Part shown: piece after piece, positions 38,032 to 44,779 of the stretch
How the letters are laid out: every line of letters starts with the position of its first letter
How positions within the stretch are numbered: the first letter of the stretch is position 1
Assembly (NCBI RefSeq): GCF_000224085.1
Contig: NC_015945.1
Span: forward strand, 2,305,501-2,369,500
Source of the DNA: Allomuricauda ruestringensis DSM 13258
Lineage (GTDB): Bacteria > Bacteroidota > Bacteroidia > Flavobacteriales > Flavobacteriaceae
DNA: 64,000 bases
Direction: 5' to 3'
Position numbers and translations under genes: made by a program
Notes under the pieces: model-generated
Databases searched by the model: none
What the model saw: the letters and a program-made list of their open reading frames with translations, nothing else
What the model was told of the DNA's origin: nothing

Positions 38032-38187
38032 TGTCATATCGAGCGCAGTCGAGATGTTTTTGTCTGCCTTTCGACTGCGCTCAAGAGGACAAAAACAAAG
38101 CATAGGTACAAATCTTAAAGGCCACTGGTACAATTACGGATATACAATTAATTTTTCATTGGATTCCTGCTTTCTCAGGAATGACAT
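38032..38187. repeat. palindromic repeats in the trpA-trpB spacer
   Basis: TCGAGCGCAGTCGAGA (from 38039) and CTTTCGACTGCGCTC (38069-38083) are the two arms of a long hairpin inside TGTCA...GGACA ends. A second unit, GATTCCTG...CAGGAATGACA, is at 38162-38187. These are short interspersed palindromes, not coding. Confidence 0.8.
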
Positions 38188-38191
38188 AAAA

Positions 38192-39376
38192 TTATAATTT
38201 AAAATAATCAATATAGTTCTGTAAATCTTTGTCGCCACGTCCGGATAGGTTTACCACCACCACATCATCTGGATTGAATTTCCTGTCCTCAAAAATGGCG
38301 AGGGCATGGGAAGATTCAATAGCTGGGATAATACCTTCCAGTTTGCAAAGCTCCAAACCAGCCTTCATAGCGTCATCATCGGTAATGGAAATAAACTCAC
38401 CCCTGCCAGACGTGTACAAATGTGCGTGCATGGGCCCTACACCCGGGTAATCCAATCCTGCCGAAATGGAGTAGGGTTCGGTAATCTGTCCATCTTGGGT
38501 CTGCATCAACAAGGTTTTGCTACCATGGATAATGCCTACTTTGCCTAAGGCGGAGGTGGCAGCACTTTCACCCGAATGAATGCCTTTTCCTGCGGCTTCC
38601 ACGGCAATGATGCCTACGTCCGGAGTATCAAGATAATGGTAGAACGCTCCCGCAGCATTACTTCCGCCACCTACACAGGCTACCACATAATCAGGTTTTT
38701 CGCGTCCTTCTTTTTCTTGAAGTTGACTTTTGATTTCTTCGGAAATTACAGATTGAAATCGTGCTACCATATCCGGGTATGGGTGGGGACCGACCACGGA
38801 ACCAATAATGTAATGCGTATCCACGGGATTGTTAATCCAATCCCTGATAGCTTCGTTGGTGGCATCTTTTAAGGTTTTACTGCCCGATGTTGCGGGCCTG
38901 ACCTCTGCGCCCAACATTTTCATACGGGCAACGTTAGGTGCTTGGCGGGCAATATCTATTTCACCCATATAAACTATGCATTCAATCCCCATAAGAGCAC
39001 AGACCGTAGCAGTGGCCACACCATGTTGTCCAGCACCAGTTTCTGCAATGATTCGGTTTTTGCCCAACTTTTTGGCCATCAGTATTTGCCCAATGGTGTT
39101 GTTGACTTTATGGGCTCCGGTATGGCACAAATCTTCGCGTTTCAGATAGATTTTTGTGTTGTATTTTTCGGATAGACGGTTGGCGAAATAAAGCGGTGTG
39201 GGCCTGCCCACATAATCTTTCAGCAATTGATGGAATTCTTCTTTGAACGAAGGTTCTTCCATAATACTGAGGTAGTTCTGCCGAAGCTCTTCGCAATTGG
39301 GATACAGCATTTCCGGGATAAATGCTCCCCCGAACTCACCATAATACCCCCGTTCATCCGCATGATAGCTCTTCAT
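38192..39376 (-). CDS. trpB: tryptophan synthase beta chain
   Basis: PLP enzyme joining indole and serine to tryptophan. The 394-residue protein has [13 protein letters not shown] with the Schiff-base Lys90, [12 protein letters not shown], the phosphate loop [11 protein letters not shown] and [14 protein letters not shown]. It is the normal TrpB1 type, not TrpB2. Twelve bases follow trpF. Preceded by trpF and followed by trpA after a repeat-filled spacer. Confidence 0.98.
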
Positions 39377-39388
39377 AGGTTTCTTTTT

Positions 39389-40090
39389 TTAGTTGCGACC
39401 GCTCTCTAGCGATTCGATGAATATTTTTAAATCTTCTATATTTTTTAATCCAGGCGCTCGTTCAAATTTACTGTTCACATCTATGGCGAAGCAGTTTTTG
39501 GAAGCTGGACTGTTTAAAAACTCTTGTAATTTTTCTTTGGAATCCAATCCAATGCCACCACTTAAAAAGTAGGGTTTGTTGGATGGGTAGTTTTGCAAAA
39601 CGGACCAGTCAAACGCATAGCCATTGCCGCCAGGTAATTTTCCTTTGGTGTCAAAAAGAAAATAATCGCAGACCTCTTCATAATCTTTCAATAGATCAAA
39701 ATCAAAATCATCCTTGATGGAAAATACTTTAATGATTTCTAGCTTTGTCAGGTCGAGCGCAGTCGAGACCTTATTCTCCTGGGATTCTTTCTGGTTTCTC
39801 GACTGCGCTCGAAATGACAGAAAGCTCTTTTTTAGTTTTTGGCAATAATCGGCACTTTCCTTACCATGGAGTTGTACCGCGTTTAATTGATATTGCTCAA
39901 CTTTTTGGATGACTTCATCCAAAGGTGCGTCTACAAAAACTCCCACTTTTTGGATGGAACTGGGCAATTCGGGCATTTCTCCCGAAAAATATCGAGAGGA
40001 TGGCTCCCAGAAAATAAAACCCAAATAATCGGGTTGCAATTTTGCTACCTCGATGGGGTTGTGGTTCATGCCGCAGATTTTTAGTCTCAT
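39389..40090 (-). CDS. trpF: phosphoribosylanthranilate isomerase with repeat-derived insertion
   Basis: Isomerises PRA to CdRP in tryptophan synthesis. From the ATG at 40090 the 233-residue protein starts MRLKICGM (catalytic Cys in KICGM) and has GVFVDAPLDEV, VQLHGKE, the second catalytic Asp in FLFDTKGK, and LSGGIGLDS. TrpF is usually 200-210 residues; the excess comes from about residues 91-115 (SFRAQSRNQKESQENK and following), encoded by a 74-base inverted repeat of the same kind as the operon spacers. The insertion is in frame and no stop is introduced. An ATG at 40108 is an alternative start. Confidence 0.93.
   Translation of the reverse strand: MRLKICGMNHNPIEVAKLQPDYLGFIFWEPSSRYFSGEMPELPSSIQKVGVFVDAPLDEVIQKVEQYQLNAVQLHGKESADYCQKLKKSFLSFRAQSRNQKESQENKVSTALDLTKLEIIKVFSIKDDFDFDLLKDYEEVCDYFLFDTKGKLPGGNGYAFDWSVLQNYPSNKPYFLSGGIGLDSKEKLQEFLNSPASKNCFAIDVNSKFERAPGLKNIEDLKIFIESLESGRN
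39746..39819. repeat. palindromic repeat inserted within trpF
   Basis: The arms TGTCAGGTCGAGCGCAGTCG (39746-39765) and CGACTGCGCTCGAAATGACA (39800-39819) are nearly perfect inverted repeats, each also present in the trpA-trpB spacer. They flank about 34 bases; the whole is in the trpF reading frame. Confidence 0.88.
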
Positions 40091-40102
40091 AGTGCTGTTC
40101 TT

Positions 40103-40219
40103 TGTCATTTTGAAATGTCAGATTGAGCCCTTCGACTATGCTCAGGATAAACTAAAGTCGAAATCGAAGTGAGAAATCTAGTGTGAGATTTCTCAATCGC
40201 TACGCTCATTTCGAAATGA
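40103..40219. repeat. palindromic repeats in the trpF-trpC spacer
   Basis: TGTCATTTTGAAATGTCAGA on the left and TCATTTCGAAATGACG on the right bound a set of partial palindromes (GAGCCCTTCGACTATGCTCA, GAAATCTAGTGTGAGATTTC). No coding function. Confidence 0.75.
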
Positions 40220-40221
40220 CG

Positions 40222-41007
40222 TTATTTTTTTAATTCATCAATAAATTTTTTTGCATTTTCACCCGGATTGTCCGTCTTCATAAAATTTTCCCCGATTAAA
40301 AAACCTTTATAGCCAAACGCTTTTAAATCCCGAATGGCCTTAACCGAACTAATGCCGCTCTCGGAAACTTTCACAAAATCATCAGGTATTTTAACCGATA
40401 ATGATTTGCTGATGTCCAAATCAACTTCAAAAGTTTTAAGGTTGCGGTTGTTTACTCCCAACATATCCAAACTTGGCATTAGGGATTTTTCGAGTTCTTC
40501 TTCATTATGTACCTCAAGCAATACATCCAGTCCCAAACCTTTGGCCAGTTCGGACAAGGTTTTTATCTCTTCTTTGGACAGAATAGCGGCAATCAATAAA
40601 ATTACGTCTGCACCATAAGCTTTGGCTTCTATAATTTGATATTCATCTATGATGAACTCTTTTCGCAAAATGGGAATGTTGGTGGATGCCCTTGCGAGCA
40701 CCAGATCATCCAACGAGCCGCCAAAGTACTTGCCATCAGTGAGTACGGATATTCCGCAGGCACCTGCATTGGTATAACCCTTGGCCACATCCTGTATACT
40801 TAAACTTTGATTGATTACAGATTTGGATGGGGAACGGCGTTTGTGCTCCGCAATAATCCCCGAGTTGCTCTTGCGCAATACTTCTGCCAAGGAGACGGAG
40901 GTGCGTTCCATCATTACCGAGGCCTCCAATTGGGGCAGGGTTATCAGAGATTTTTTTAAATCGACTTCTTGGCGTTTATCGGCTACTATTTTGTCTAGTA
41001 TGTTCAT
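40222..41007 (-). CDS. trpC: indole-3-glycerol phosphate synthase
   Basis: Closes the indole ring from CdRP. The 261-residue monofunctional TIM barrel has IIAEHKRRSPSKS (catalytic Lys and Glu area), ISVLTDGKYFGGSL, ILRKEFIIDEYQI with the catalytic Lys, LGVNNRNLKTFEVD and VSESGISSV. It is not fused to trpF, which is a separate gene downstream. Repeat-filled spacers of about 130 bases lie on both sides. ATG at 41007. Confidence 0.97.
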   Translation of the reverse strand: MNILDKIVADKRQEVDLKKSLITLPQLEASVMMERTSVSLAEVLRKSNSGIIAEHKRRSPSKSVINQSLSIQDVAKGYTNAGACGISVLTDGKYFGGSLDDLVLARASTNIPILRKEFIIDEYQIIEAKAYGADVILLIAAILSKEEIKTLSELAKGLGLDVLLEVHNEEELEKSLMPSLDMLGVNNRNLKTFEVDLDISKSLSVKIPDDFVKVSESGISSVKAIRDLKAFGYKGFLIGENFMKTDNPGENAKKFIDELKK

Positions 41008-41012
41008 GCTGT

Positions 41013-41125
41013 TTTTGTCATTCCACCCTGATGTGGAATCTAATTTTTTTATTTCTGTTGGATTCCTGCTTTCGCAGGAACGACATTTGTTTTTTTGTCA
41101 TTCTGAACGCAGTGAAGAATCTCAT
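41013..41125. repeat. three palindromic units in the trpC-trpD spacer
   Basis: The units are TGTCATTCCACCCTGATGTG (41017-), GATTCCTGCTTTCGCAGGAA (41061-41080) and TTGTCATTCTGAACGCAGTG (41095-). The middle one is a clean 8-bp stem hairpin; its first 8 bases recur at 38162. Confidence 0.78.
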
Positions 41126-41134
41126 ATAATGACA

Positions 41135-42130
41135 CTATTCATTACTCAATTCTTGCAACTTTCTCAAAGCTTCCAATCCTTTGCCGCTAAGCAACGATTC
41201 TTTTGCTTTTTCAAACCCTTCCTTGGGTGTGATGCCTTGTGTAGTGGCAATGGCCACCCCTGCATTGGCGCAAACCACGTTATTTTGGGCCTCGGTGCCC
41301 TTTCCTTGCAAAATACTCATGAATATCTGGGCGGATTCAGCTACATCTTCACCTCCGGTTATTTCCTGTTGTGAAATTTTTTCTACTCCAAAGTCAGCGG
41401 GCTTCAATATGGCTTCGGTATTGTTGGAAATGGTCTTGGTGTCACCCGTCAACGAGATTTCATCATACCCATCCAACGCGTTTAAAACGGTGAATTTTTT
41501 ATCCGTATTCTGATAAAGGTAACCATACATTCGCGCCAATTCCAGATTGTACACACCTACCATTTGGTTTTTCGGGAATGCTGGGTTCACCATAGGTCCC
41601 AACATATTGAAAAATGTTTTCACGGCCAATTCCCTTCGGATGGGTGCCACATTTTTCATGGCGGGGTGGAAGAGTGGAGCGTGGAGCACGCAGATACCTG
41701 CCTCTTCAATGGTTTTCTTTAAAAAATCAGCATCATTACTGAATTTGATGCCCAAAAACTCCATCACATTGCTACTCCCACATTTGGAAGAAACTCCATA
41801 GTTTCCGTGTTTGGTCACGTGGATTCCCGCACCAGCCGTTACAAAAGAAGCCAAAGTGGAAATGTTGAAGGTGTCTTTTCCATCCCCGCCGGTTCCGCAA
41901 AGGTCGATTGGGTCGTATTCGGCAAGGTCAACAGCCAAGCAAAGTTCCAATAGGGCATCACGGAAGCCTTCCAGTTCCTCAATGGTTACGCTCCGCATCA
42001 TATAAACGGTTAAAAAAGCGGCTATTTGTGAGGTGTTGTATTCTCCATTGGCAATGTTCACCAAAATTTGCTTGGCTTCCTCCTTGGGGAGTATTTCGTG
42101 ATTTATTAATTTATTTAATGTCTCTTTCAT
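41135..42130 (-). CDS. trpD: anthranilate phosphoribosyltransferase
   Basis: Adds phosphoribose to anthranilate. The 331-residue protein has the PRPP motifs LCGTGGDGKDTFNIST and the KHGNYGVSSKCGSSNVME segment, and PRRELAVKTFFNMLGPMVNP. It is the stand-alone form, with trpG as a separate upstream gene. ATG at 42130. Confidence 0.97.
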   Translation of the reverse strand: MKETLNKLINHEILPKEEAKQILVNIANGEYNTSQIAAFLTVYMMRSVTIEELEGFRDALLELCLAVDLAEYDPIDLCGTGGDGKDTFNISTLASFVTAGAGIHVTKHGNYGVSSKCGSSNVMEFLGIKFSNDADFLKKTIEEAGICVLHAPLFHPAMKNVAPIRRELAVKTFFNMLGPMVNPAFPKNQMVGVYNLELARMYGYLYQNTDKKFTVLNALDGYDEISLTGDTKTISNNTEAILKPADFGVEKISQQEITGGEDVAESAQIFMSILQGKGTEAQNNVVCANAGVAIATTQGITPKEGFEKAKESLLSGKGLEALRKLQELSNE

Positions 42131-42264: not shown

Positions 42265-42831
42265 TTAGCTTTCCAACCAATTTTTTAGCATTTGTTTTCC
42301 TTCGGGCGTTAAAACCGATTCTGGATGAAACTGTACAGCGGTCACGTCGTATTCTTTATGTCGAAGTGACATAATTTGTCCGTTCTCATCTACCGCGGTG
42401 ATTTCCAGTGTATCGGGTAAATTCGGGTCTACTACCCAAGAGTGGTACCGCCCTACCTGAAGCGTTTTGGGCATATCCTTATAAATAGGATCGTCTTTGG
42501 TGATGGTTATGGTGGTGTCAACCCCATGGTAGACTTGGTCTAAATTGATTAAGGTACCTCCAAAGACCTCACTGATGGCTTGTAGGCCCAGACAAACGCC
42601 AAAAATACGTTTAGTTGGTGCGTAGGTTTTTATGATTTCCTTTAGCAATCCTGCTTCATCGGGAATTCCTGGTCCAGGAGACAAAACCACATAGTCAAAC
42701 GGTTCTACCTCGTCCAAAGTAAGTTGGTCGTTTCGTTTTACGGTCACCTCGCAATCCAAATCTTCTAGATAGTGCACCAAGTTGTAGGTGAAGCTATCGT
42801 AATTGTCTATCATTAAAATCTTTCTTCCCAT
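42265..42831 (-). CDS. trpG: anthranilate synthase component II (glutamine amidotransferase)
   Basis: Supplies ammonia from glutamine to TrpE. The 188-residue class I amidotransferase has LSPGPGIPDEAG, the nucleophile Cys80 in FGVCLGLQAI, and the His169/Glu171 pair of VQFHPESVLTP. Its start lies two bases after the trpE stop. It may serve only TrpE or also PabB; no pabB is in the window. Confidence 0.96.
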   Translation of the reverse strand: MGRKILMIDNYDSFTYNLVHYLEDLDCEVTVKRNDQLTLDEVEPFDYVVLSPGPGIPDEAGLLKEIIKTYAPTKRIFGVCLGLQAISEVFGGTLINLDQVYHGVDTTITITKDDPIYKDMPKTLQVGRYHSWVVDPNLPDTLEITAVDENGQIMSLRHKEYDVTAVQFHPESVLTPEGKQMLKNWLES

Positions 42832-42833
42832 GT

Positions 42834-44252
42834 TTAGATAGTTTCGGCAATTTCCAGCGCTTTGTTCAATGCGCCCAATTTGTTGTAGGTTTCTTGGAGT
42901 TCATCGTCCGGGTTGGATGCTGCCACCAAACCTGCCCCTGCTTGGTAATACAGTTCGTGGTCCTTGCTCAAGAATGTCCGGATCATAATGGCGTGGTTAA
43001 AGTTGCCATCAAAATCCATGAACCCGATGGCCCCACCGTAATAAGACCTACTGGTTTTCTCGTATTTTTCAATAAGCTGCATGGCCATGTGTTTTGGGGC
43101 GCCGCTCAAGGTCCCAGCAGGGAACGTATCGGCGACCACTTTCATGGTAGTGCTGTCCTTTTTCTTTTGCCCGGTCACTTTTGAGACTAAGTGGATAACG
43201 TGGGAGAAATATTGTACTTCTCGATAAGTTTCCACTTTTACGGTATTTCCGTTGCGGCTGAGGTCGTTTCGAGCCAAATCCACCAACATTACGTGCTCGC
43301 TGTTCTCTTTTTCGTCCTGTGCCAATTTTTTTGCCAGTTCGGCGTCCTTTTCATCGTTACCGGTACGTTTGTAAGTTCCGGCAATGGGATGTATTTCAGC
43401 TTTGCCATCTTTTACGATAAGTTGTGCTTCGGGAGAGCTTCCAAATATTTTAAAGTTGCCGTAATCAAAATAGAACAGGTAAGGGGAGGGGTTAATGGAA
43501 CGTAATGCCCGGTAAACATTAAATTCATCTCCTTTAAACCTTTGTTTGAACCTTCTGGAAAGCACCAATTGAAATACATCGCCACGTTGGCAATGCTTTT
43601 TGGCCAAGGCTACCTGGTCTTTGTAATCTTCATCCTTTAGGTTTGATTCTGGCTCACCTTCTTTATTAAAGTTATAGGATGAAAAAGTGCGGACATTGAA
43701 AAGTTGTTCAATCTCATCTACATTGCTCTCGGTGTTGTAACAATGTGCGAACAAATAAGCCTCGTTCTTAAAATGATTGATGGCAATGATGTTCTGATAC
43801 ACCGCGTAATAAATATCCGGAATGTTCACCGAATCTTCTTTTTTGGAAATCGCTACGTCTTCAAAATAGCGAACGGCATCGTAGGCCATATACCCGAACA
43901 GTCCGTTGTATATAAACTTGAAGTCCTGCCCGCCGGCAGGCAAGGTGTTCTGAGTGGTTTTGAATAGCTTTCCAAAGTTGTGGATGACCTCGGTCACATC
44001 GGTTTCAGGTGTAATTTCCGCTACTTCTTTGGTTCCATCTGGAAACCTTTGTGTGATGGTTTCGTTCTCAACCTTGATAGATGCAATGGGATTGCAGCAG
44101 ATGTACGAAAAGCTGTTGTCGTTAGCGTGGTAATCGCTACTTTCCAAAAGGATGCTGTTTGGAAATTTGTCCCGAATTTTGAGGTAAACACTCACGGGCG
44201 TAATGGTGTCCGCAAGAATTTTTTTGTAGTGTGTTGTTAATGAATAAGTCAT
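42834..44252 (-). CDS. trpE: anthranilate synthase component I
   Basis: Makes anthranilate from chorismate, the first committed step. The 472-residue protein has the feedback-inhibition motif LLESSD (35-40), which in known enzymes binds tryptophan, and the chorismate-binding core: PEAQLIVKDGKAEIHPIAGT, EHVMLVDLARNDL, FPAGTLSGAPK and YYGGAIGFMDFDGN. It is the first biosynthetic gene after the leader and the GIY-YIG gene. Start ATG at 44252. Confidence 0.97.
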   Translation of the reverse strand: MTYSLTTHYKKILADTITPVSVYLKIRDKFPNSILLESSDYHANDNSFSYICCNPIASIKVENETITQRFPDGTKEVAEITPETDVTEVIHNFGKLFKTTQNTLPAGGQDFKFIYNGLFGYMAYDAVRYFEDVAISKKEDSVNIPDIYYAVYQNIIAINHFKNEAYLFAHCYNTESNVDEIEQLFNVRTFSSYNFNKEGEPESNLKDEDYKDQVALAKKHCQRGDVFQLVLSRRFKQRFKGDEFNVYRALRSINPSPYLFYFDYGNFKIFGSSPEAQLIVKDGKAEIHPIAGTYKRTGNDEKDAELAKKLAQDEKENSEHVMLVDLARNDLSRNGNTVKVETYREVQYFSHVIHLVSKVTGQKKKDSTTMKVVADTFPAGTLSGAPKHMAMQLIEKYEKTSRSYYGGAIGFMDFDGNFNHAIMIRTFLSKDHELYYQAGAGLVAASNPDDELQETYNKLGALNKALEIAETI

Positions 44253-44291: not shown

Positions 44292-44576
44292 TTAATCAAA
44301 GAAATAGGTTAAATCCTTCCAATCTGGATTGAAATCGTTTATCAGGTTTATTTTCCAGCTCCTATTCCATTTTTTTAATTGTTTCTCTCTTCGAATGGCT
44401 GGCATTGGGAAATTAAATTTTTCATAATAGACTAATGTTTTAAGATTATATCTACTGGCAAATTTGCTGCCCACGCCATGTTTGTGCCTGTACATTCTCT
44501 TTTTCAAATCGTTTGTATAGCCTATATAAATGGTTCCCATTTTCTTGTTTGATATGATATAGACATAAAAACTCAT
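44292..44576 (-). CDS. GIY-YIG domain endonuclease-like protein
   Basis: The 94-residue product from the ATG at 44576 (an ATG three codons earlier is equally possible) starts with MSFYVYIISNKKMGTIYIGY, a variant GIY-YIG pair (VYI...YIG), then the conserved Arg of KKRMYRHKHG and RYNLKTLVYYE, with the Glu in the catalytic role and IRREKQLKKWNRSWK as a C-terminal basic segment. Such single-domain proteins (UPF0213-like) are many-copied in flavobacterial genomes. It lies inside the trp transcript, between attenuator and trpE, and is bracketed by hairpins at 44263-44280 and 44591-44610. No role in tryptophan synthesis is known. Confidence 0.85.
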   Translation of the reverse strand: MSFYVYIISNKKMGTIYIGYTNDLKKRMYRHKHGVGSKFASRYNLKTLVYYEKFNFPMPAIRREKQLKKWNRSWKINLINDFNPDWKDLTYFFD

Positions 44577-44590
44577 TTTCAACATTTAGG

Positions 44591-44610
44591 ATTTCCGCCT
44601 TCGCGGAAAT
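44591..44610. repeat. 20-bp hairpin upstream of the GIY-YIG gene
   Basis: ATTTCCGCCTTCGCGGAAAT: 8-bp stem, CTTC loop. It differs from the hairpin on the other side of the GIY-YIG gene mainly in the last stem pair and the loop. Confidence 0.7.
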
Positions 44611-44636
44611 TATAACTAAAGCCGTAAAAAAGAAAA

Positions 44637-44659
44637 AGGCCTGTCGTGATGACAAGCCT
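44637..44659 (-). terminator. trp operon attenuator terminator
   Basis: On the minus strand AGGCTTGTC, loop ATCAC, GACAGGCCT form a 9-bp stem (one G-U pair), followed by TTTTTCTTTTTT. It is 27 bases after the leader peptide stop and before the GIY-YIG gene and trpE. The sequence TCACGAC (44643-44649, in the loop and right arm) can instead pair with GTCGTGA of the leader (44687-44693), which would prevent the hairpin: a classic antiterminator. Confidence 0.85.
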
Positions 44660-44686
44660 CTTATATGATAATAATGGGGACTTAGC

Positions 44687-44743
44687 TCACGACGTTCGAC
44701 GTAAGTTTATCCACCACCAGTTATTTGCTATTCTGTTAATCAT
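44687..44743 (-). CDS. trpL: trp leader peptide with three consecutive Trp codons
   Basis: The 18-residue peptide MINRIANNWWWINLRRTS ends at a TGA (44687-44689). The tandem TGG codons (44711-44719) are a direct tryptophan sensor. If charged tRNA-Trp is scarce, a ribosome stalled there covers CUUACGU, the left arm of a small hairpin, so that GTCGTGA (overlapping the stop) is free to pair with TCACGAC in the terminator. If Trp is plentiful, the ribosome reaches the stop and masks GTCGTGA, and the terminator forms. This is a sequence-based prediction; the gene was too short for ORF prediction. Confidence 0.82.
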   Translation of the reverse strand: MINRIANNWWWINLRRTS

Positions 44744-44748
44744 TGCAT

Positions 44749-44779
44749 CAAATATAGGGATGAAATTTTAACGGCACAA
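44749..44779 (-). promoter_or_regulatory. trp operon promoter (TTG-N20-TATATTTG)
   Basis: On the minus strand TTG at 44779-44777 and TATATTTG at 44756-44749 are separated by 20 bases, the Bacteroidota -33/-7 pattern. The -7 box ends only 5 bases before the trpL ATG, so the transcript should begin at or very near the ATG. This makes a leaderless or nearly leaderless trpL mRNA. Confidence 0.75.

Follow-up and report, generated by a model that had tools for sequence, protein, structure and literature searches.

A Bacteroid-trp attenuator in Allomuricauda ruestringensis and an adjacent GIY-YIG gene between palindromic repeats

The element at 44626-44779 (minus strand) of the window, i.e., the 64,000-nucleotide stretch of Allomuricauda ruestringensis DSM 13258 analysed here (contig NC_015945.1, positions 2,305,501 to 2,369,500), is with high confidence a ribosome-mediated transcription attenuator of the Bacteroid-trp family (RF01692). 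It belongs to a family listed since 2010, and this kind of attenuator is thus already known and ordinary for Bacteroidota. Adjacent to it lies a small GIY-YIG nuclease gene enclosed by inverted palindromes, which may belong to a kind of mobile element that has not yet been described.

Results

The element upstream of the trp genes is a member of the Bacteroid-trp family

The attenuator and its parts are the following:

44651-44763, minus strand: match to Rfam RF01692 (Bacteroid-trp), 69.8 bits, model positions 1-131 of 131
44749-44779, minus strand: promoter, made of TTG (44777-44779), 20 nt and TATATTTG (44749-44756); from sequence and genus conservation
44687-44743, minus strand: leader peptide ORF MINRIANNWWWINLRRTS, whose first base is predicted to lie about 1 nt away from the 5' end of the mRNA; from conservation
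44711-44719, minus strand: three tandem Trp codons, TGG TGG TGG; from sequence, conserved
44668-44724, minus strand: Trp-codon stem, formed by the Trp codons and CCCCAUUA and enclosing a CUUACG/CGUGAG hairpin; from folding and covariation
44679-44693, minus strand: antiterminator 5' side, GUCGUGA (44687-44693) plus UAAGUC (44679-44684); from stalled-ribosome folds and alignment
44643-44658, minus strand: antiterminator 3' side, GGCUUG (44653-44658) plus UCACGAC (44643-44649), within the terminator; from folds and alignment
44634-44662, minus strand: intrinsic terminator hairpin of 12 pairs, with a T-run to 44626; from folding, 7 of 12 pairs with double changes

The score obtained with the Rfam covariance model exceeds the gathering score of the family (49), and the E-value is 1.3e-06 when the whole 64-kb window is searched. 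The model begins inside the promoter and ends at the 5' arm of the terminator, and it is matched in full, as expected of the family, upstream of trpE (42834-44252) in a member of the Bacteroidota, with trpE on the same strand and one other gene between the two. An antiterminator and a leaderless start do not form part of the RF01692 description in the sections of PMC2864571 considered here. Bacteroid-trp appears as a motif in Table 1 of Weinberg 2010 (PMC2864571), it is treated as a trp attenuator of Flavobacterium psychrophilum in the relevant part of Rochat 2019 (PMC6414381), and clues to leader-peptide attenuation upstream of amino-acid operons of the same species are given in a passage of Guerin 2021 (PMC9723704). 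The premise of the original prediction that a trp attenuator would be unusual in Bacteroidota is therefore wrong; its coordinates for the parts of the attenuator are correct to the base.

Within the genus Allomuricauda/Flagellimonas, 68 of 71 genomes match RF01692 (E <= 0.001), with 61 of the 71 above the family cut-off, and the three genomes with no match are all drafts of at least 110 contigs. In an even sample of Bacteroidota, matches at the same threshold occur in 42 of 395 genomes. All genus matches were fetched (69 loci from 68 genomes, the genus set), together with 41 loci of the phylum sample (the phylum set), 38 of which were parsed with a pattern requiring the box, an ATG and two Trp codons. 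One assembly (G068) contains two attenuator matches (C4, C23); its contamination is listed as 6, and the double match is thus possibly an artefact.

The attenuator had been placed in front of a trp operon, and trp genes do lie downstream, although the first gene is a GIY-YIG nuclease gene and not trpE. The trp genes and the repeats between them are:

42834-44252, minus strand: trpE (PF00425, PF04715)
42265-42831, minus strand: trpG (PF00117; named by position)
41135-42130, minus strand: trpD (PF00591, PF02885)
41016-41085, minus strand: pair of facing, gene-less REPs between trpD and trpC (41085-41059 and 41040-41016; from sequence)
40222-41007, minus strand: trpC (PF00218)
39389-40108, minus strand: trpF, with an in-frame translated repeat (SFRAQSRN; PF00697 in two stretches, from translation)
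38192-39376, minus strand: trpB (PF00291; named by position)
38160-38186, minus strand: single REP downstream of trpB (from sequence)

Given the SFRAQSRN repeat and the splitting of PF00697 in two, a palindromic repeat seems to lie within trpF. A further repeat-like stretch, ATTCTTCACTGCGTTCAGAATGACA, is found beside the two REPs of the trpD-trpC gap (41016-41128).

Promoter spacing predicts a near-leaderless attenuator mRNA

Promoter and leader are as originally predicted: on the minus strand TTG (44779-44777) is followed by 20 nt, the box TATATTTG (44756-44749), 5 nt and the leader ATG (44743), from which an 18-codon ORF runs to 44687 and encodes MINRIANNWWWINLRRTS. All 69 genus loci have the box as TATATTTG or TATCTTTG and a spacing of exactly 5 nt to the leader ATG (any spacing of 3 to 9 nt would have fitted the pattern), with a leader of 18 codons in 68 loci and 17 in one. 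The leader contains WWW in 69 of 69 genus loci, a motif that the finding pattern required and by which no fetched locus was lost, and at least WW in 38 of the 41 loci of the phylum set (pattern requiring two Trp codons, three loci unparsed).

The TAnnTTTG box is located at -12 to -5, and 5.5% of mRNAs are leaderless, according to the part of Guerin 2021 (PMC9723704) that deals with promoters. Combined with the 5-nt spacing, this position predicts a transcription start one base before the ATG, and the attenuator mRNA of the genus would consequently be near-leaderless; given the same start position, the constant spacing would leave no room for a 5' UTR with a Shine-Dalgarno sequence. A sigma-70 promoter was rejected, as a scan gave weak sites only and the Bacteroidota box accounts for the promoter.

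Spacing is more diverse in the 38 parsed loci of the phylum set, with 12 loci at 4-7 nt, 25 at 16-23 nt and one ambiguous (L074). Nineteen of the 25 long spacings belong to one genus of the family (g2), where they measure 16-20 nt. Two spacing classes (4-7 and 16-23 nt, among loci L070-L110) are seen inside one family, perhaps reflecting a switch between leaderless and leadered attenuators.

The ribosome-mediated trp attenuator of enterobacteria is represented by trpL of E. coli. The attenuator of the window shares with it tandem Trp codons, predicted mutually exclusive structures and an intrinsic terminator, but differs in having no Shine-Dalgarno room (predicted 5' UTR of about 1 nt), and in a putative antiterminator strand that overlaps the leader stop and would pair with the loop, the 3' arm and the 5' arm of the terminator. 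The leaderless trpL of Sinorhizobium meliloti is similar in that its RNA starts with the ATG of a leader that contains Trp codons (PMC7298713, in part), but it belongs to another phylum and encodes a 14-residue peptide, and the start in the window is predicted rather than mapped. By analogy with rnTrpL/peTrpL of that species, the 5' RNA might act mainly in trans, be it as a small RNA or through a small peptide, attenuation being secondary, and the predicted leaderless start and short terminated RNA resemble those described in the same part of PMC7298713; however, the leader residues ahead of the Trp codons are variable across the genus loci, and we regard such a trans-acting role as very improbable.

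Two stems covary and a proposed antiterminator is conserved

The terminator had been described as a 9-bp stem 27 nt past the leader stop; this core is present, although the full stem (44662-44634) has 12 pairs, including A-U and G-U pairs at its base, and continues into TTTTTCTTTTTT. The terminator stretch folded alone reaches -16.8 kcal/mol (z -6.6) and the whole leader -34.6 kcal/mol (z -4.4), with 0 of 200 shuffles as good in either case. The best fold without a ribosome is the Trp-codon stem, and the previously noted CTTACG/CGTGAG hairpin is indeed formed, but nested in this larger stem, which pairs the Trp codons with CCCCATTA.

Conservation was assessed on an alignment of 103 loci (99 distinct) out of 110, three being unparsed and four of the remaining 107 left out because the terminator finder was blank. 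The terminator has 99.0% of its cells paired and double changes in 7 of 12 pairs (reached by 0 of 500 shuffles). The Trp-codon stem is paired in 79.9% of cells, with double changes in 10 of 21 pairs (1 of 500 shuffles) and a covariation score attained by 0 of 500 shuffles. When RNAalifold is applied to the whole alignment, the terminator is the sole structure predicted. The original prediction had proposed looking among relatives for a conserved leader and covarying stems, and both are found, in the form of WWW in every genus locus and of covariation in these two stems.

GTCGTGA (44693-44687), which overlaps the leader stop, is an exact complement of TCACGAC (44649-44643), as the original prediction had it. 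Folding of the growing RNA with a modelled stalled ribosome, i.e., with stretches of the leader blocked, predicts a larger antiterminator that adds UAAGUC:GGCUUG to GUCGUGA:UCACGAC. This antiterminator is the best structure at RNA ends 101-104 in all stall models and is still the best at end 107 with at least the first 41 nt blocked (-15.0 to -16.2 kcal/mol), while a ribosome modelled at the stop codon leaves the terminator as the sole structure (-16.8 kcal/mol). Every model gives the finished terminator a higher stability than the antiterminator, implying that the switch must be kinetic.

Over the 103 loci, 93.1% of antiterminator cells are paired (shuffles average 92.8%, 3 of 500 as high), dropping to 25-45% when the register is slid. 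Double changes are seen in 3 pairs, a number matched by 28 of 500 shuffles, and in 5 cells (0 of 500), and the covariation score lies within the shuffles (285 of 500 reach it). In a swap test on 35 loci, most show no preference for their own terminator over those of others; the own terminator is clearly favoured only in a few divergent loci (e.g., L070, L100, L101, L110). Overall, the antiterminator is well conserved and thermodynamically sensible; its covariation is weak and provides no proof. By eye, CAAAGUCUU in the divergent attenuator of L104 seems to pair with the 5' arm of the terminator instead.

These data bear on two alternatives. Stalling might cause attenuation without a long antiterminator, if the stalled ribosome or a freed CCCC stretch disturbs the terminator otherwise, which would be consistent with the weak covariation and with the four loci where the pairing is not recovered (L104) or is partly different (L105, L107, L110). 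We consider this unlikely, as the stated register pairs 93.1% of cells against at most 45% when slid, and as UCAC, 4 of the 7 bases of UCACGAC, lies in the loop of the terminator, whose own pairing does not account for its conservation. Even less probable, to the point of being nearly discounted, is a constitutive terminator behind a chance Trp-rich ORF with no switch at all: the strength of the terminator alone and the weak antiterminator covariation would fit, but all 69 genus loci keep WWW and the leader, covariation is seen in both the Trp-codon stem and the terminator, and a strong unregulated stop before trpE would make little sense.

Attenuation through the long antiterminator would then proceed as follows. 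Transcription would start about 1 nt ahead of the leader AUG, allowing a ribosome to load onto the 5' end of the emerging RNA. If charged Trp-tRNA is available, this ribosome would read to the UGA and cover GUCGUGA...UAAGUC, and the terminator would form. When Trp is short, it would stall on UGG UGG UGG and block the Trp-codon stem; the freed GUCGUGA and UAAGUC would pair with GGCUUG and UCACGAC, dismantling both terminator arms, and the polymerase would continue into the GIY-YIG gene and trpE-G-D-C-F-B.

A patchily distributed GIY-YIG gene separates the attenuator from trpE

The 97-codon gene between the attenuator and trpE, absent from the original prediction, is flanked by two inverted copies of an imperfect palindrome:

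44591-44610, minus strand: left palindrome ATTTCCGCGAAGGCGGAAAT, stem 8, loop 4; 0 mismatches to the searched pattern
44292-44585, minus strand: GIY-YIG nuclease gene, 97 codons (start at 44576 if as in most relatives); PF01541
44262-44281, minus strand: right palindrome ATTTCCACCTGCGTGGAAAT, in inverted orientation to the left copy; 2 mismatches to the searched pattern

PF01541 is matched with 60.9 bits over profile positions 2-78 of 78, and Y9, Y20, G22, R30, H34 and E67 are invariant in 21 aligned GIY-YIG sequences (20 of them picked among the 120 relatives listed). Judging from its sequence, the product thus has a putative nuclease domain with conserved residues, as homing endonucleases do. 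Within the genus the gene is present in 20 of 69 loci, always between terminator and trpE and codirectional, and the interval between the two, measured so as to include the last 4 nt of the terminator and the trpE start codon, is 279-422 nt in these carriers versus 23-40 nt in the other 49. Four of the 20 copies are broken (L004, L018, L051, L057). On the trpE tree the presence label needs 15 changes, at least 12 of them on well supported branches, as compared with 17.4 when the labels are shuffled (40 to 50 of 500 shuffles need as few), i.e., presence is patchy and almost unclustered. Genus relatives at least 64% identical to the GIY-YIG protein of the window number 20 (one a fragment), and these are the 20 trp copies.

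The element of the window and that of L044 share 100% DNA identity, as opposed to 84.4% for trpE (first 900 nt) and 85.5% for the upstream region, and identity drops back within about 50-170 nt on each side, a pattern that reads as the footprint of a recent between-species transfer at one site. Clear transfer is limited to one pair (L001/L044) among the 20 carriers. Identity is higher for the element than for trpE in 136 of all 190 carrier pairs, and the two identities correlate (Spearman 0.69), indicating that relatedness explains much of the likeness. Presence or absence at one site and transfer with co-converted flanks (clear for L001/L044) are further traits of homing endonucleases, and the free-standing ones of phages are likewise solitary, patchy, placed at a fixed intergenic site and moved with short flanks. 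The window gene differs from these in its location in a chromosomal bacterial operon and in its flanking palindromes, and cleavage by its product is putative. A recently multiplied insertion sequence was rejected, as the palindrome occurs in the genome once without mismatch and twice with one mismatch, and identity to the other four GIY-YIG genes does not exceed 41%. Inspection of the trpE site by eye defined no target-site duplication.

Among 80 loci fetched by similarity to the window protein, 26 adjoin trp genes. The GIY-YIG gene lies before trpE in Allomuricauda and synonyms (14), Salegentibacter (L158-L161, L163) and an uncultured member of the Flavobacteriaceae (L213), between trpG and trpD in L162 and L164, and behind trpB in L174, L178, L197 and L207. 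In the same set, the 20 loci at least 63% identical to the window protein are all at trp genes, as is one of three at 60% (L164; not L169 or L192) and few among the remainder. The order WWW leader, terminator, palindrome, nuclease gene is found in L158, L159 and L213. More distant copies of the genus occupy the trpD-trpC gap (L133, L135, L140, L144) or lie behind trpB (L136, L139, L142), the same two gaps that hold gene-less REPs in the window.

The genome of the window has 5 GIY-YIG genes and 11 REP-pattern matches, and no match to a Y1 transposase. One of its GIY-YIG genes (L115, 2098615-2098860) stands beside an apparent tRNA gene, with the tRNA end TTCCACCACTCGAGCAGGACTT on both sides and a CCTGCCTGCCGGCAGGCAGG palindrome present, and looks like an insertion with duplication; another (L113, 2046165-2046404) lies between inverted copies of TGTCAGGCTGAGCGCAGTCGAAGC, another repeat type.

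GIY-YIG genes are associated with CGTC-type REPs

In other genomes, many GIY-YIG genes are flanked by palindromes that are CGTC-type REPs (TGTCATTCCCGCGNANGCGGGAATCCA), a superfamily described in Di Nocera 2013 and published as being without a dedicated transposase, at least in the part of that paper relevant here (PMC3733652). The left palindrome of the window (44591-44610; stem 8, loop 4) has the stem of 8-9 bp and loop of 4-5 nt typical of this type; the terminal C/TGTC tag is missing at the trpE copy (L111) and present in the window at 41085 and 38186, and GTC precedes the palindromes of Salegentibacter L158 and L159.

When left and right flanks are compared, inverted repeats scoring at least 35 are found in 38 of 74 usable loci (of 80) versus 1 of 346 shifted positions, and, in a second set from the phylum sample, at a score of at least 30 in 14 of 25 usable loci (of 29) versus 0 of 125. 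A swapped-flank control was discarded (23 of 110 exceeded the 99% line, including a run of N), being confounded by the many loci that share one repeat type. CGTC-type REPs, called by a tag-and-stem test within 300 bp with position-shifted controls, are present on either side in 47 of 74 loci of the 80-locus set and on both sides in 31 (control 21 of 277 and 1 of 277). The trp-site lineage (L145-L165) contributes 3 of 21 on either side and 0 of 21 on both, versus 44 of 53 and 31 of 53 for the other GIY-YIG loci (control 19 of 193 and 1 of 193), a split suggesting that the wider kind typically bears the tag, and that the lineage of the window has mostly lost the tag and keeps the palindrome body.

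This arrangement recalls RAYT/REPIN and TIRYT as presented in part of PMC3733652, in which a small nuclease gene likewise lies amid inverted palindromic repeats, with gene-less pairs elsewhere; it differs in having GIY-YIG instead of a Y1 tyrosine transposase, and CGTC-type instead of GTAG-type REPs. At least 5 REP matches occur in 34 of the sampled genomes; GIY-YIG is matched in 32 of these and Y1 in 28. The best GIY-YIG locus per genome from 30 of these 32 (10 also in the 29-locus set) was compared with the best Y1 loci (PF01797; 25 usable of 30, from 28 genomes). CGTC REPs are present on either side of the GIY-YIG gene in 18 of 30 and on both sides in 13 of 30 (shifted control 17 of 120 and 2 of 120), and beside Y1 transposase genes of these REP-rich Bacteroidota genomes in 0 of 25 (control 4 of 100 and 0 of 100); these counts come from a second REP test, the first pattern having given 2 of 30 versus 0 of 25. 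Inverted repeats of other kinds are found at 16 of 25 Y1 genes, in agreement with the literature on RAYT and TIRYT. By the plain inverted-repeat score, GIY-YIG (22 of 30) and Y1 (16 of 25; p 0.56) are not separated, and the two classes of loci are distinguished by repeat type alone.

Co-occurrence at the genome level is a weak argument: GIY-YIG is matched in 55 of 64 REP-bearing genomes versus 104 of 331 others (odds ratio 13.3, kinship ignored), and Y1, also commoner with REPs, in 55 of 64 versus 215 of 331 (odds ratio 3.3, kinship ignored).

Discussion

The association between gene and repeat makes the GIY-YIG nuclease a candidate mobilising enzyme for CGTC REPs. Association is not mobilisation, however, a GIY-YIG match is absent in 9 of 64 REP-bearing genomes, Y1 genes are also commoner in genomes with REPs, and the lineage of the window is mostly without the tag; the REPs could also be insertion targets rather than element ends. 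Weighing these points, we lean slightly towards a reading in which REP - GIY-YIG - REP would be a widespread mobile element whose nuclease mobilises CGTC REPs, as the counterpart of RAYT for GTAG repeats, and which keeps entering the trp gaps of Flavobacteriaceae, the nuclease at the trpE site being under tryptophan control.

Among the titles and abstract beginnings listed from the openly licensed literature, none links GIY-YIG with such repeats, which is weak evidence of novelty. In the portion of PMC9465073 considered, GIY-YIG endonuclease and RayT are separate, unlinked entries of one gene table; the 'RAYT' match in PMC10928387 is the name of an author, and PMC8565304 concerns another protein, judging from the matched portions.

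The attenuator prediction is correct and ordinary in kind, and it is the adjacent element that deserves follow-up. For the attenuator itself, two refinements emerge, namely a near-leaderless form that, as predicted from box spacing, would be invariant in one genus, with a longer spacing retained in another genus of the same family, and a 5' strand of the antiterminator that overlaps the leader stop. The larger point lies beside it: GIY-YIG genes are found between CGTC REPs in several phyla, as opposed to 0 of 25 Y1 genes in REP-rich genomes. If the nuclease moves the repeats, a question about one of the two large superfamilies of REPs would be answered, and the filled and empty alleles of related species make the trp site a ready test bed.
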